NCBI GenBank assembly: GCA_017448685.1 | Contig: JAFSKY010000017.1 | Coordinates: 1 to 33,749, forward strand | Source of the DNA: Synergistaceae bacterium | Lineage (GTDB): Bacteria > Synergistota > Synergistia > Synergistales > Aminobacteriaceae | Direction: 5' to 3' | Length of the DNA stretch: 33,749 nucleotides | Part shown: positions 18,563-33,629 of the stretch, in pieces | Layout of the letters: the number at the start of each line of letters is the position of its first letter | Numbering within the stretch: position 1 is the stretch's first letter | Translations under genes and position numbers: made by a program | Notes under the pieces: generated by a model | The model's database searches: none | What the model was told of the DNA's origin: nothing | Seen by the model: only the letters and a program-made list of their open reading frames with translations

Positions 18563-18608
18563 AATTCTGCGAGAAAGGCGGTTGACAAACCATGAATAAT
18601 ATAATAAT

Positions 18609-18650
18609 GGCAACAGGCAACAGGCAACAGGCAACAGGCAACAGGCAACG
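18609..18650 (+). repeat. Heptanucleotide simple-sequence repeat (GGCAACA)5 plus GGCAACG
   Basis: Six tandem 7-base units, the last with one substitution, occupy the 5' region of the acyltransferase gene. Because 7 is not a multiple of 3, gain or loss of one unit shifts the downstream reading frame by one base. The array is downstream of a candidate ATG at 18592 and upstream of the first transmembrane helix of the acyltransferase. Arrays of this kind are the usual substrate for slipped-strand phase variation. Confidence 0.95.
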
Positions 18651-18664
18651 GCTATAACTATGCG

Positions 18665-19630
18665 TTGAACGCGGTTAAGCTCTTAATGGCCGTGATAATT
18701 GTGATATATCATTACTATCTTGCGCGGCTTGGTTGGGACAGCGATTTTTATTTTCGTGGCGGTTATTTGTGTGTTGACGCGTTCTTTGTCATATCAGGCT
18801 TCCTTTTGGCGGGAATGATTCTCTCAATGCCTCGCAATACATCTTTCCTTTCATGGCTCAAACGCAGAATGAGAAGCATATATCCGTGTTACGTGGTGGC
18901 TCTGTTCTTCGCATTTGCTGTAAGGTCATATTTTGGTGGACTTCCTGACATGCACGAAATTGCCTCACTCATTGAGGAGATATTCATTATTCACGAATGG
19001 GGAATCGTTCAGAGTAACAAATACTACAACGGCGCAACGTGGTATATATCCGCGATGATGTTTGTTTCATGCGCGTATTTCATCCTCGCAAAGAGATTCA
19101 CGCCACAAAATCGTGAACGTATTATCGCAAGTGTGTCAGCTCTGTGCTTCTCCGTAATGATTATGTATTTCGGCAATATTCATGTTCACGGGATCGGCAA
19201 AGGATTTATCCCAAAAGGAATAATTCGCGGGTTCTCAGGAATGGGAATAGGTTGGCAACTTTTCGTCTTCAGGGACAAAATCAATCTCAAATATCCCGGT
19301 GCGTTGTTCGCATTATCGGTGATTATGATTACGGTGATATGTCTTTACGCAAAGGACTCATATTCTGACATTCTCATTTACCCGGCAACAGCTCTTGCAC
19401 TAGTCAGCTCACAGTATATTGCGGTGAAATCTCCAGCTGTGCAAAGGGCAATGATTTTCTCCGGCAGAATGAGCTATGCGCTATACCTGTGTCATATGAC
19501 GGTTCAAGCGATAATGACTCGCCTCCTTCATGAATATACGTTGATGATGTTCCTTGTTGCGAGTGTGGCGGGAGCATTTGTGCTTATGTGGGCTGTGTCT
19601 GTGATTGGGCGTGTGTTGGCGTGGCGTTAA
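18665..19630 (+). CDS. Acyltransferase family 3 membrane protein, probably phase-variable; present state out of frame with its ATG
   Basis: Integral membrane O-acyltransferase (321 aa from TTG 18665), probably modifying a surface polysaccharide or peptidoglycan. The first helix LNAVKLLMAVIIVIYHYY contains the family His; FRGGYLCVDAFFVISGFLLA and RRMRSIYPCYVV are also typical, and about ten helices are visible. No ATG with a ribosome site exists in this frame: it is open only back to 18608 and TTG 18665 has no Shine-Dalgarno. The nearest plausible start, ATG 18592 (GGCGG 10 bases upstream, 29 bases after comEC), is in another frame and stops at 18657 after 21 codons. Loss of one heptamer (or gain of two) joins ATG 18592 to this frame, giving an N-terminus that reads through ATGNRQQ-type repeats into NGYNYALNAVK. 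Confidence 0.85.
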   Translation: MNAVKLLMAVIIVIYHYYLARLGWDSDFYFRGGYLCVDAFFVISGFLLAGMILSMPRNTSFLSWLKRRMRSIYPCYVVALFFAFAVRSYFGGLPDMHEIASLIEEIFIIHEWGIVQSNKYYNGATWYISAMMFVSCAYFILAKRFTPQNRERIIASVSALCFSVMIMYFGNIHVHGIGKGFIPKGIIRGFSGMGIGWQLFVFRDKINLKYPGALFALSVIMITVICLYAKDSYSDILIYPATALALVSSQYIAVKSPAVQRAMIFSGRMSYALYLCHMTVQAIMTRLLHEYTLMMFLVASVAGAFVLMWAVSVIGRVLAWR

Positions 19631-30069: not shown

Positions 30070-30540
30070 ATGATTCTTGTGATATTGTGGCTGGTTCAAG
30101 ATTTGCTGACTGTTTTCACGGGCGGAGGAATGCAGATTCCCGGGCTTTTCATGCTTGGAGTAGCGTACAGGCTTCTCATAGATGACGGGAGCGGAGATGA
30201 AAGCCTTTGGGCAATATGGACAGCTTTTGCCGGGGGAGTTTTATGGGATATACGCTGGATAGGTATACCGGGATTCTTCACACTGGGATATGTTGTTGTG
30301 GTGCTGATTGTGATTCAGGTGTGGGGGATAATTCCTCCGCAAGGCCGCGTTTCAGGTACGGGGCTTATCGTGTTTGCACTCCTTGAAGCCTCGCAGATTA
30401 TTCCTCCTGCATTGCCTATTATTGTGCTTGGTGGCAATACTAGTTGGGGAGGATTCTTCATGCAGCAGGCGTATTCCCTTCCCGCTATACTGTTCACGAT
30501 GTATGTTTATTCCCGTAAGGTGAGAAGCTCAAGCGTTTAA
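30070..30540 (+). CDS. mreD: Rod shape-determining protein MreD-like
   Basis: 156 aa membrane protein with about five hydrophobic helices, a polar IDDGSGDES loop, and an FAGGVLWDIRWIGIPGFFTLGY segment matching the MreD F-x-x-G-L-x-x-D pattern. MreD sequences are poorly conserved, so the call relies partly on position directly after mreC (1-base gap) and before a terminator. The last codons (VRSSSV) and the following terminator are duplicated, diverged, about 190 bases downstream. Confidence 0.85.
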   Translation: MILVILWLVQDLLTVFTGGGMQIPGLFMLGVAYRLLIDDGSGDESLWAIWTAFAGGVLWDIRWIGIPGFFTLGYVVVVLIVIQVWGIIPPQGRVSGTGLIVFALLEASQIIPPALPIIVLGGNTSWGGFFMQQAYSLPAILFTMYVYSRKVRSSSV

Positions 30541-30596
30541 TGTAAGTTGATGGTGTGAATGATTCCCCCTGAATGTTAGGGGGATATTTTTTTGCG
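30520..30596 (+). repeat. Direct repeat copy 1: mreD 3' end plus terminator
   Basis: Begins GTGAGAAGCTCAAGCGTTTA, covering the last mreD codons, and ends in the T run and GCG after the terminator. It is similar over its whole length of about 77 bases to 30710-30787, which begins GTGAAAAGCTCAAGCGTTTA and ends in a T run and GCG. Confidence 0.75.
30562..30594 (+). terminator. Intrinsic terminator of the tadA to mreD unit
   Basis: Stem CCCCCT/AGGGGG (extended by flanking AT pairs) with a 7-base loop, then ATATTTTTTT. It lies 21 bases after the mreD stop and is the only strong terminator seen in the rightward series from tadA. Confidence 0.88.
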
Positions 30597-30709
30597 TCAT
30601 TGAAGCCCCACAAGCCTCAGAAAAATTCCCGGCCATGTCTCAATTCACCTTCCAATCTCACGAAGCCCAATACCCCCGCAATTGTATTTCCTGCGTTCAA
30701 GTCCTTAAT

Positions 30710-30787
30710 GTGAAAAGCTCAAGCGTTTAAGATATGTTGCTGTGGTGAGAATGTTTCCCACATTGTGTGCGGAGGATTTTTTTTGCG
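30710..30787 (+). repeat. Direct repeat copy 2: diverged duplicate of mreD tail and terminator
   Basis: Starts GTGAAAAGCTCAAGCGTTTA and would encode VKSSSV then stop, compared with VRSSSV then stop in mreD. The hairpin part has decayed (TTTCCCACATTGTGTGCGGA) but the T8 run and following GCG remain. Upstream of the shared codons the similarity to mreD is lost, so this is a remnant rather than a second mreD. Confidence 0.7.
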
Positions 30788-30800
30788 CGGGAATATGGCA

Positions 30801-30837
30801 CAAAGAAAAGCCCCTCCCGTTTTGCCGGAAGGAGCTT
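30801..30837 (-). terminator. Probable terminator of the DWIW gene pair
   Basis: On the minus strand AAGCTCCTTCCGG pairs imperfectly with CGGGAGGGGCTT around a short A-rich loop, followed by TTCTTTG. It lies about 50 bases beyond the stop of the second secreted-protein gene. Several mismatches make it weaker than the other terminators here. Confidence 0.6.
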
Positions 30838-30889
30838 GATTTTGCTTTGAGTATTGGCGGTGAAGATTGAGCGCGTTTTCAGTCCGTAT

Positions 30890-31189
30890 TTACCAAATCC
30901 AATCCACAATAATTGCAAAGATTAAGTCCCTAATTCCCTTTGGGCGTTCTCCGAAACAATAAGTTCTTGCACTGTAGAGCGTTTTAATGTTGCGGACATC
31001 GTACGAAACAGCCTGACCAACATCGCACGAAACAGCAAAGCCGATGGGAAAGCCGATGGGCATCTCACCGGGTGCTAAGCAACAGAACCCTGGCCACGCT
31101 GAAGCAGAATTACCCGCAAAGCACGCCCCTGAAGCACACAGCACCAATGCCAGAATCACAGCCGTTATTCTCTTCACGGCAATCACCAT
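30890..31189 (-). CDS. Small secreted Cys-containing protein ending in DWIW, unknown
   Basis: 99 aa, not matched to any family I know. A signal peptide (MVIAVKRITAVILALVLCAS, cleavage near ACFA at residue 25) precedes a short mature part of about 74 aa with five or so Cys (CC pair, SCDV, TYCF). Two internal tandem repeats are encoded: PIGF twice in a row, and AVSCDV/AVSYDV eight residues apart. The last residues IVDWIW echo the LIDWIW end of the neighbouring protein. ATG 31189 overlaps the upstream stop by 7 bases (ATGGTGA), no ribosome site is visible, so it is probably coupled; an earlier in-frame start at 31222 would lie inside the other gene. Confidence 0.62.
   Translation of the reverse strand: MVIAVKRITAVILALVLCASGACFAGNSASAWPGFCCLAPGEMPIGFPIGFAVSCDVGQAVSYDVRNIKTLYSARTYCFGERPKGIRDLIFAIIVDWIW
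30996..31060 (-). repeat. Short tandem repeats inside the second DWIW gene
   Basis: Two repeats lie side by side. ACATCGTACGAAACAGC (30996-31012) recurs with one mismatch at 31020-31036, period 24. AAAGCCGATGGG is perfectly doubled at 31037-31048 and 31049-31060, period 12. Both periods are multiples of 3, so copy changes would alter length without breaking the frame. Confidence 0.85.
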
Positions 31190-31722
31190 ATCCAGTCTAT
31201 GAGGCAGTGAACACCATAGCACACTCCAGCAGCAGCAACACCCACAACCGCAGCCCCTACAACAGCAGGAGCCGCCGCAATACCCAGCGCACTCGCTACA
31301 GGAGTCCCGATTGCCGCAAGAGTCGCATTCGTTGCCGCAACACCTGAAAGAGTCGCTATAGCCGTCCCAGTTTTTGCCGTCATTCCTGCCGCGCCAGCAA
31401 GATATACTGCCGTTGAAGTCGCGCCCGTTGTTATCGCTGTATCAGCCGCCGCCTTGATGGGTGCTTTCACTAAATCTTTTCCGGCCTCTTTAGCGACATC
31501 AATCGCAATGTCAAGACGCTCATCGTTATTCTTGGCGTTGTAGAAATCTGAGCCAGTCTTGTACACCTGATATACTGTATTGACAGTTTTCCCGACTTCA
31601 CCGAATTTTTCTGCCTGTCTCTTCACCTCCTCATTGCCTGACCATCCCGCAAACGCAGGCTGAACCGCCCCAATCACCATAACGCTGACCAACAACACCG
31701 CGATGAACCTTGAATGTTTCAT
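31183..31722 (-). CDS. Secreted Gly/Ala-rich protein ending in DWIW, unknown
   Basis: 179 aa. A clear signal peptide (MKHSRFIAVLLVSVMVIGAV, cleavage near QPAFA at residue 25), a polar, charged region (about 26-90, with KEAGKDLVKAPIKAAAD), then a long Ala/Gly/Thr-rich hydrophobic stretch (about 95-168) resembling a glycine-zipper membrane-inserting segment, and a C-terminal VCYGVHCLIDWIW with two Cys. No family is recognised. The shape (export signal, soluble part, zipper-like hydrophobic tail) is compatible with a membrane-active or surface-assembling protein, which is inference. An AGAAGGA ribosome site lies 8 bases before the ATG. First gene of a two-gene leftward unit. Confidence 0.72.
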   Translation of the reverse strand: MKHSRFIAVLLVSVMVIGAVQPAFAGWSGNEEVKRQAEKFGEVGKTVNTVYQVYKTGSDFYNAKNNDERLDIAIDVAKEAGKDLVKAPIKAAADTAITTGATSTAVYLAGAAGMTAKTGTAIATLSGVAATNATLAAIGTPVASALGIAAAPAVVGAAVVGVAAAGVCYGVHCLIDWIW

Positions 31723-31768
31723 GATATATTCCTTCTTTCTTGGGAATGAGGATCTTGAGGATAAATCA

Positions 31769-31797
31769 ATTATAGAATCAATCCCCCCCCCTAAAGA
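31769..31797 (-). promoter_or_regulatory. Promoter of the DWIW pair with a G9 tract in the spacer
   Basis: On the minus strand a consensus TATAAT (31774 to 31769) lies about 47 bases before the ATG at 31722. The 17 bases upstream of it consist of nine consecutive G (31791 to 31783) and ATTGATTC; the -35 position then falls on TCTTTA, a poor match. A homopolymer between a weak -35 and a good -10 means that gain or loss of a G would change the spacing and so the promoter strength. Confidence 0.65.
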
Positions 31798-31880
31798 GCA
31801 TAAATACTCACTTCATGATACGTGATTATATGTATGTGTGAAAAGTTCGTCGCAAGTGGAAGCCTTCCTGTACTCTTTGG

Positions 31881-31886
31881 TAAAAT
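31881..31886 (+). promoter_or_regulatory. Candidate -10 box upstream of mrdA
   Basis: TAAAAT lies 30 bases before the mrdA ATG. No good -35 box is present at 16-18 bases, so this is tentative. Confidence 0.3.
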
Positions 31887-31916
31887 TCATCCCATCAAAA
31901 ATTATGCAGGTGAAAC

Positions 31917-33629
31917 ATGGAAACATTAGACAGCAGGCTTAAATTAGTCATGGGCAGCATGATATTATCAGTGCTTGTTCTGATTGGCGGTCTATACTTC
32001 TGCCAAATCTACCAGGGCGACAAATATATACGCCTCGCACACAGCAACAGACTCAGGCTGATTCGATTCGCCGCCCCAAGAGGCGAAATCTTTGACCGCA
32101 ACGGAGTCCCTCTCGCCGTGAATGACACAACGTTTTGCATCATGGGCTACCCTCTCGACCTCAATACCCCCGAAAAGCTCGAACGACTCAGCAGAATTTT
32201 GATGAGGCACGGAATACCCTTCACAGTTTCAGACCTCGAAAAGACCATCAAGCAACAACGATTAGCCCCTTACCGCGTAATGAGAATCGTTCCCAACCTC
32301 ACAATGACACAAATGGCCGAGCTTGTTGCAGATTACGAGTTCCCTCACGAATTATTCCCGTTAAGCGTCTGGAGAAGAACTTATCCCGCAGGAACAACAG
32401 CAGCTAACATCATTGGCTATGTCGGCGAAATCTCAGAGGGAGAACTCAAACTCCGCGCTGAAGACGGCTATGCTGGAGGAGACCTCATCGGGAAATCTGG
32501 CATTGAACGCTCATATGAATCTGAATTGAGAGGCTCACCCGGTCAAGAAGCCTTAGAGGTTGACGCAAGAGGCAGAAGAGTCAGAGTCCTTGACGCAAGC
32601 CCGGCCGTTAAGGGGGAGGATATACGCCTAACCCTTGACATGGGAGCGCAGAAATTAGCCGTTGAGCTGCTCAAAAACTGGAAGGGTGCTGTTGTGGCTA
32701 TGGACGTTCACACAGGGGCGGTATTGGCTCTTGCGTCATCGCCAGTTTACGACAACAACCCGCTGTCTTGGGGCGTTTCTGGCCGTGAATGGAACGCAAT
32801 CATGAATGACCCTTCACGCCCAATGCTTAACCGCGCAATCGCAGGTGTGTACCCTCCCGCAAGCACGTTCAAGGCTTTCATGTCTATAGCATCGCTTGAG
32901 GAAGACACAATCACGCAAAGCACAATGGTTTCATGCCGAGGCGGACTCAGATTCGGTGCTCACCTGTTCAAGTGCTGGAAACATTCCGGGCATGGCTCAT
33001 TGAACGTAATCGGAGGGCTTCAACATTCGTGTGATGTATTCTTCTATCAGGTCGGACTCAGGACTGGAATCGAGAAACTCATCAAGTGGGGCAGGAAATT
33101 TCATCTTGGCGAGCCTACTGGGATTGACCTTCCCGGCGAAACTGGTGGCAACATTGCCGGGCCTGAATGGAAAATGCGACGCTTCAAATCAGCTTGGGCA
33201 GGTGGAGATACGGTGAACTACTCCATAGGGCAAGGCTACATGCTCATGACCCCTATACAAATCGCGAGGGTTTATGCCTGCATAGCTAACGGCGGGAAAA
33301 TGGTTACGCCACACCTCAACGCTAAAGGCTACAAGACTCCCGAAAATATCGGCCTCAATATGACGAAGCTCGAAATCGTAAGGCGAGGGCTTGAAGCTGT
33401 TGTGTCTCGTGGAACTGGCTCAAGGGCTGGGAGATTTGGCGTTCATGTCGCGGGCAAAACTGGAACGGCTCAAAACTCACACGGTGATGATCACGCACTT
33501 TTCGCGGGATATGCTCCGGCTGAAGCTCCGAGATATGTCGCAGTCGCTGTGATTGAGGGGGGCAAGCATGGTAGCAGTGTTGCAGGGCCTATTGTGGGTC
33601 AAATGCTTGCTCATTTATTGTCCCATTGA
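31917..33629 (+). CDS. mrdA: Penicillin-binding protein 2 (elongasome transpeptidase)
   Basis: 570 aa class B PBP that cross-links peptidoglycan during rod elongation with MreBCD and RodA. One N-terminal membrane helix (about 12-30), a dimerisation domain beginning AAPRGEIFDRNG at about 52-63, then the transpeptidase domain with STFK (catalytic S316, K319), SCD at 371-373 and a KTGTAQ motif near residue 503. The SCDVFFYQ context distinguishes PBP2 from PBP3/FtsI. An AGGTG ribosome site precedes the ATG. It is separated from mreD by the DWIW gene pair on the opposite strand, a break in the usual mreBCD-mrdA series. Confidence 0.94.
   Translation: METLDSRLKLVMGSMILSVLVLIGGLYFCQIYQGDKYIRLAHSNRLRLIRFAAPRGEIFDRNGVPLAVNDTTFCIMGYPLDLNTPEKLERLSRILMRHGIPFTVSDLEKTIKQQRLAPYRVMRIVPNLTMTQMAELVADYEFPHELFPLSVWRRTYPAGTTAANIIGYVGEISEGELKLRAEDGYAGGDLIGKSGIERSYESELRGSPGQEALEVDARGRRVRVLDASPAVKGEDIRLTLDMGAQKLAVELLKNWKGAVVAMDVHTGAVLALASSPVYDNNPLSWGVSGREWNAIMNDPSRPMLNRAIAGVYPPASTFKAFMSIASLEEDTITQSTMVSCRGGLRFGAHLFKCWKHSGHGSLNVIGGLQHSCDVFFYQVGLRTGIEKLIKWGRKFHLGEPTGIDLPGETGGNIAGPEWKMRRFKSAWAGGDTVNYSIGQGYMLMTPIQIARVYACIANGGKMVTPHLNAKGYKTPENIGLNMTKLEIVRRGLEAVVSRGTGSRAGRFGVHVAGKTGTAQNSHGDDHALFAGYAPAEAPRYVAVAVIEGGKHGSSVAGPIVGQMLAHLLSH

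Follow-up and report, generated by a model that had tools for sequence, protein, structure and literature searches.

A conserved promoter block with a nine-guanine spacer tract before two small exported proteins of Fretibacterium, and G/C-tract promoters across the genus

The window analysed here is a whole stretch of 33,749 nt from the draft genome of an uncultured Fretibacterium (Synergistota; 2.44 Mb, 89.7% complete), a genus assignment that follows two named relatives, of which L076 is identical with the G009 contig. Between mreD and mrdA it carries a pair of small minus-strand genes, both ending in DWIW, which are preceded by a putative promoter with nine guanines (G9) in its spacer (table 1). 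The full first gene was found in three species only, namely that of the window and those of L075 (= G057) and G009, whose orthologues share 80% and 66% identity with it. The second gene is also present in L075, again with the C-terminus VDWIW, and the pair is retained there. The DWIW proteins gave no significant family in Pfam, NCBIfam, and PHROGs, and no relatives of them were found in phages, plasmids, and IMG/VR. In addition, small exported proteins with a common signal peptide (MLKKSKVIAVL...) occur genus-wide (L127-L149); their bodies are varied and often Gly-rich, and several stand in tandem.

Table 1. Features of the two-gene unit and its promoter block (positions in the window)
Feature	Position	Strand	Evidence or remark
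Terminator-like hairpin 3' of gene 2	30808..30837	-	
Gene 2, ~95 aa, MKRITAVILALVLCASGACFAG...VDWIW	30890..31177	-	GTG start at 31177 inferred from the L075 orthologue
Gene 1, 179 aa	31183..31722	-	Signal peptide, Gly/Ala-rich C-terminal region, C-terminus CLIDWIW
-10 element TATAAT	31769..31774	-	Sequence; identical in all four copies (window, L075, G009, C194)
Remainder of the 17-nt spacer (ATTGATTC)	31775..31782	-	ATTGA kept in both orthologues
G9 tract in the promoter spacer	31783..31791	-	G9 in L075, GGGGGTGGG in G009, G8 in the C194 paralogue
-35-position hexamer TCTTTA	31792..31797	-	CTTTA kept in all copies
Upstream block TTTTCACACATAC...CACGTATCA...TGAGTATT	31798..31845	-	Conserved with L075 and G009; possible activator region

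The initial annotation had placed a G9 run (C9 on the plus strand) in a promoter spacer, next to a perfect TATAAT and a poor -35 element, and all of this was confirmed in the sequence. The TATAAT lies ~46 nt from the ATG of gene 1 (31722), and the spacer consists of the G9 followed by ATTGATTC. The hexamer at the -35 position agrees with TTGACA in only 2 of 6 bases. The 17-nt spacing is therefore a matter of convention, and transcription may require an activator. No Rfam family was found in 30500-32000, so the unit is without a known structured leader.

The results of comparison with the relatives showed that the promoter block is conserved. The core promoter is identical to that of the window at 27 of 30 positions in L075 and at 26 of 30 in G009. 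In both relatives the block stands after flhB, and it is again in front of the exported-protein gene. The tract itself is G9 in L075 and GGGGGTGGG in G009, and the spacer measures 17 nt in all three species. Furthermore, a copy in the own genome (C194) shows 88% identity over 83 nt with a G8 tract. In this paralogue ATT replaces the ATG of gene 1, the promoter leads into a different open frame, and a remnant of the flhB end lies upstream. It is the only further copy in the own genome, and we rejected the idea that the promoter is a multi-copy element. Meanwhile, direct repeats of ~90 nt (L073 5634-5723 and 6586-6674, G000 C194) flank this degenerate G8 unit, which suggests a duplicated or mobile segment.

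Thus all copies with an intact gene have the same tract length (9/9/9 between species, from three species with one genome each, and from assemblies that give only the commonest length), and the sole change, to G8, is in the degenerate paralogue that lacks the ATG start. These comparisons support the view that the block belongs to the two-gene signal-peptide unit and that the promoter is real as a conserved block. The G9 is unlikely to be an assembly artefact, because both block and tract are conserved in the relatives and in the paralogue.

The nine-base run had been described as standing out in the window. It is indeed the only homopolymer of at least 9 nt there (the next longest is T8, and other G/C runs reach at most 6), but it is only mildly surprising, since a G9 also arose in 10 of 100 dinucleotide-shuffled versions of the window. 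Its position, together with its conservation in three species and the paralogue, is not chance. A scan of the genome for other repeats had been proposed as a check in the initial annotation. In the genome there were 65 G tracts of exactly 7 nt, 7 of exactly 8, 3 of exactly 9, and 20 of at least 10 (10-22 nt), so that 23 tracts reach at least 9 nt and the longest has 22. The length distribution is bimodal, with the long class far above the trend, and the G9 of the window sits at the short edge of this class. Several G tracts lie at contig ends (C101, C202, and C207), as expected where tract length or sequence hampers assembly.

The genes affected by G tracts include those for LicD, glycosyltransferase 61, an FkbM methyltransferase, LuxE, and a short-chain dehydrogenase, and further sites lie inside genes at ATP-grasp C-termini and in DUF6625. 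For example, a G9 splits a LicD gene (L035 3136-4094, G000 C4) into two frames, with profile positions 1-55 upstream of the tract and 193-227 downstream in another frame. In a GT4-type glycosyltransferase, start and body are likewise in different frames at a G tract. Beside the split LicD gene, another LicD-like gene and one for glycosyltransferase 61 contain further tracts, G13 and G16. At another locus (L043 3899-7143, G000 C139), a lamin-tail-domain fragment is followed by G16 and then by a CotH-kinase-type secreted protein in another frame. A heptamer at 18609 had also been called slippage-prone, and this claim fares better than that for the G9. Five copies of GGCAACA (18609-18643) stand between an ATG at 18592 and an acyltransferase (PF01757) frame (18592-18665). 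The frame of this ATG ends just past the tract, and the acyltransferase is out of frame, that is, OFF in the assembly. Gain or loss of repeats would shift its frame.

G/C tracts in promoter spacers were then sought in 43 Fretibacterium genomes with the pattern TTGAC-N(1-9)-G8-N(2-14)-TANAAT and its C8 version, with the reversed patterns as controls. We found 17 matches for G8 and 40 for C8 (57 in total, with one G012 site counted twice), against 0 and 1 for the reversed controls. Among the loci examined, 24 of the 43 core cases have a spacer of 20 nt, 10 have one of 19, and 4 have one of 21, although their tracts range from 8 to 15. Furthermore, tract and flank lengths are negatively correlated (r = -0.79), and the variance of the total spacer (1.3, permutation mean 6.2) was as small in 0 of 10,000 permutations. 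Homologous promoter pairs show the same, with tracts of 10/9, 10/11, and 11/12 while the spacer stays at 19-20; for instance, C59 has G10 with flanks of 3+7 and G053 has G9 with flanks of 4+7, each giving 20. We know of no description of such a ~20-nt spacer with compensating flanks in Campylobacter or Helicobacter. Since scans with one mismatch per hexamer were swamped by coding noise, exact TTGACA/TATAAT pairs were used for comparison with ordinary promoters. Among these pairs, which are small in number and whose tract loci were retrieved by tract pattern and not by spacer, the spacers peak at 17-18 nt without a tract and at 20 nt with one.

By inspection of their sequences, many of the downstream genes encode exported, lipoprotein-like, Gly-zipper, or CHxIIH membrane proteins. 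Two genes with the same type of signal peptide as the DWIW proteins have a C10 promoter tract (L133) and an interrupted C6TC3 tract with a spacer still of 20 nt (L141). Two sites of the own genome (L036 2763-2794, G000 C39; L037 5074-5043, G000 C59) combine a perfect TTGACA, C11 or G10, and TAAAAT at 20 nt. The C59 promoter heads a gene cluster. One protein encoded there weakly resembles endonuclease VII, and another has a TGTAIATLSG...ATNATLA motif in common with the DWIW protein. In addition, six loci (L151, L152, L154, L158, L173, and L206) have the repeated motif TTCACATAATCCCTTGCCTTTGTGATATAAT, with several near-identical copies in G057; it looks like a repeated operator-promoter or a repeat element.

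The window promoter shares with this class a TANAAT -10 element and a spacer that contains a G/C homopolymer of 8 nt or more, and with many of its members an exported or membrane type of product. However, it has TCTTTA at 17 nt and no TTGAC at 19-21 nt, and its spacer lies outside the class range of 19-21 nt (mode 20). Membership in the TTGACA class was rejected on both counts, and comparison with that class is therefore indirect. What appears to be conserved in the class (20 nt) and in the window (17 nt) is the total spacer and not the tract length, as suggested by the comparisons above, and this fits promoters whose output depends on spacing. The class mode lies 2-3 nt above ordinary spacing, and either the assemblies show most of these promoters in a low state, or the best spacing is different when a G.C run is present. 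We tentatively suggest, as a reading that is possible but somewhat short of even odds, that a genus-wide promoter class on poly-C/poly-G spacers of ~20 nt controls families of exported Gly-zipper proteins and lipoproteins. Such promoters would mostly be in a low state and be turned on by slippage to 17-18 nt, or the G.C run would have a structural function in the spacer. On this reading, the promoter in the window would be related to the class but have a spacer of 17 nt.

Tract length in a promoter is known to matter in other bacteria. In porA of Neisseria meningitidis, expression is high with 11G, intermediate with 10G, and low with 9G (PMC3639595), and in tprL of Treponema pallidum the length of a promoter poly-G affects reporter activity (PMC7864442). 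The window promoter resembles porA in the G homopolymer in the spacer, the exported product, and a similar tract length (9-11) (PMC3639595). However, its tract keeps one length in the three species and is broken in one of them, and the protein is unrelated. The likeness to tprL lies in a poly-G of ~8-10 in the promoter of a putative surface protein and in a genome rich in poly-G (PMC7864442), whereas the length effect was shown by reporter for tprL and would be a prediction for the promoter studied here. By analogy, we infer that the spacing principle of porA and tprL may extend to it. Meanwhile, the poly-C/poly-G contingency loci of Campylobacter and Helicobacter also comprise genome-wide G/C tracts between and within genes, several of them for surface polysaccharide (PMC8355987, PMC2823697). 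The Fretibacterium class differs in keeping its spacer near 20 nt with compensating flanks. Searches on phase variation in Synergistetes or Fretibacterium and on simple sequence repeats in Synergistaceae found such a system in no title or abstract of the papers covered.

The reading that we prefer, at a probability of about 0.5, is that the promoter is sensitive to spacing and is kept at the length that works, with slippage possible. The G9 would form the central part of the spacer in a conserved sigma-70-type promoter of two small exported proteins. Spacer length would be decisive: nine G-rich bases bring it to 17 nt, a value in the 17-18 nt range of ordinary promoters of the genus, and selection apparently maintains this working state. 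One G lost or gained through slippage (8 or 10) would alter the spacing by 1 nt and probably reduce or adjust the output, so the site may be slippage-capable. In the lineages seen, the tract seems to be kept at its working length rather than switching freely. Promoter activity, a strength set by spacing, and slippage in cells are all predicted features of this model.

Active phase variation as in porA, in which the G9 would change length at high frequency and grade or switch both exported proteins, builds on the match with porA in the initial annotation and is rather unlikely in our judgement. The porA-like interpretation is partly supported, by its setting. The G tract does lie between the -35 and -10 positions, although the -35 element is poor; the promoter block is conserved in front of a signal-peptide gene pair; the genome has 20 G tracts of 10-22 nt and a LicD gene split by a G9; poly-G/poly-C promoters occur in the genus, including the C10 and C6TC3 promoters of genes with the same signal-peptide type; and the paralogue has G8. 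What has so far found no support is length variation at the locus itself. The 9-nt block and the 17-nt spacer are identical in three species, nine is the short end of the long-tract class of the genome, and the homopolymer, uninterrupted in L075, is broken in G009, where GGGGGTGGG should hardly slip at all. A tract of nine in every species, interrupted in one, is not what one would expect of a freely running switch.

The equal length of the interrupted tract in G009 also fits an ordinary promoter with a G-rich spacer, either a fixed sequence (for structure or regulator contact) or a chance loss of the T from GGGGGTGGG, with slippage playing no role. Conservation extends to most of the 17-nt spacer, with ATTGA among the conserved bases, a G9 arises in a tenth of the shuffled windows, and the wider class too has an interrupted tract at an unchanged spacer (L141). 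We consider this improbable, since the uninterrupted G9 is common to two species, the paralogue has altered its length, and the genome has few runs of exactly 8 or 9, while its longer ones fall in a contingency-like class. A role of the tract in the divergent promoter of mrdA (PBP2, 31917, plus strand), which has the tract ~125 bp upstream of it, is largely refuted and very improbable: there is no plus-strand promoter match at the site, and the orthologous blocks are located elsewhere in the genome, after flhB and away from mrdA, still before the exported-protein gene.

Taken alone, the window has a modest meaning, that of one conserved promoter with a spacer that may be capable of slippage under the spacing-sensitive reading. 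Of greater interest are the G/C-tract promoters found across the genus. If they switch by slippage, a genus of Synergistota would gain a contingency system of the kind present in Neisseria and Campylobacter. In that case, the tight 20-nt spacer with its compensating flanks would raise the question of whether the commonest length corresponds to the on or the off state, or of whether RNA polymerase has a different spacing optimum across a G.C homopolymer.
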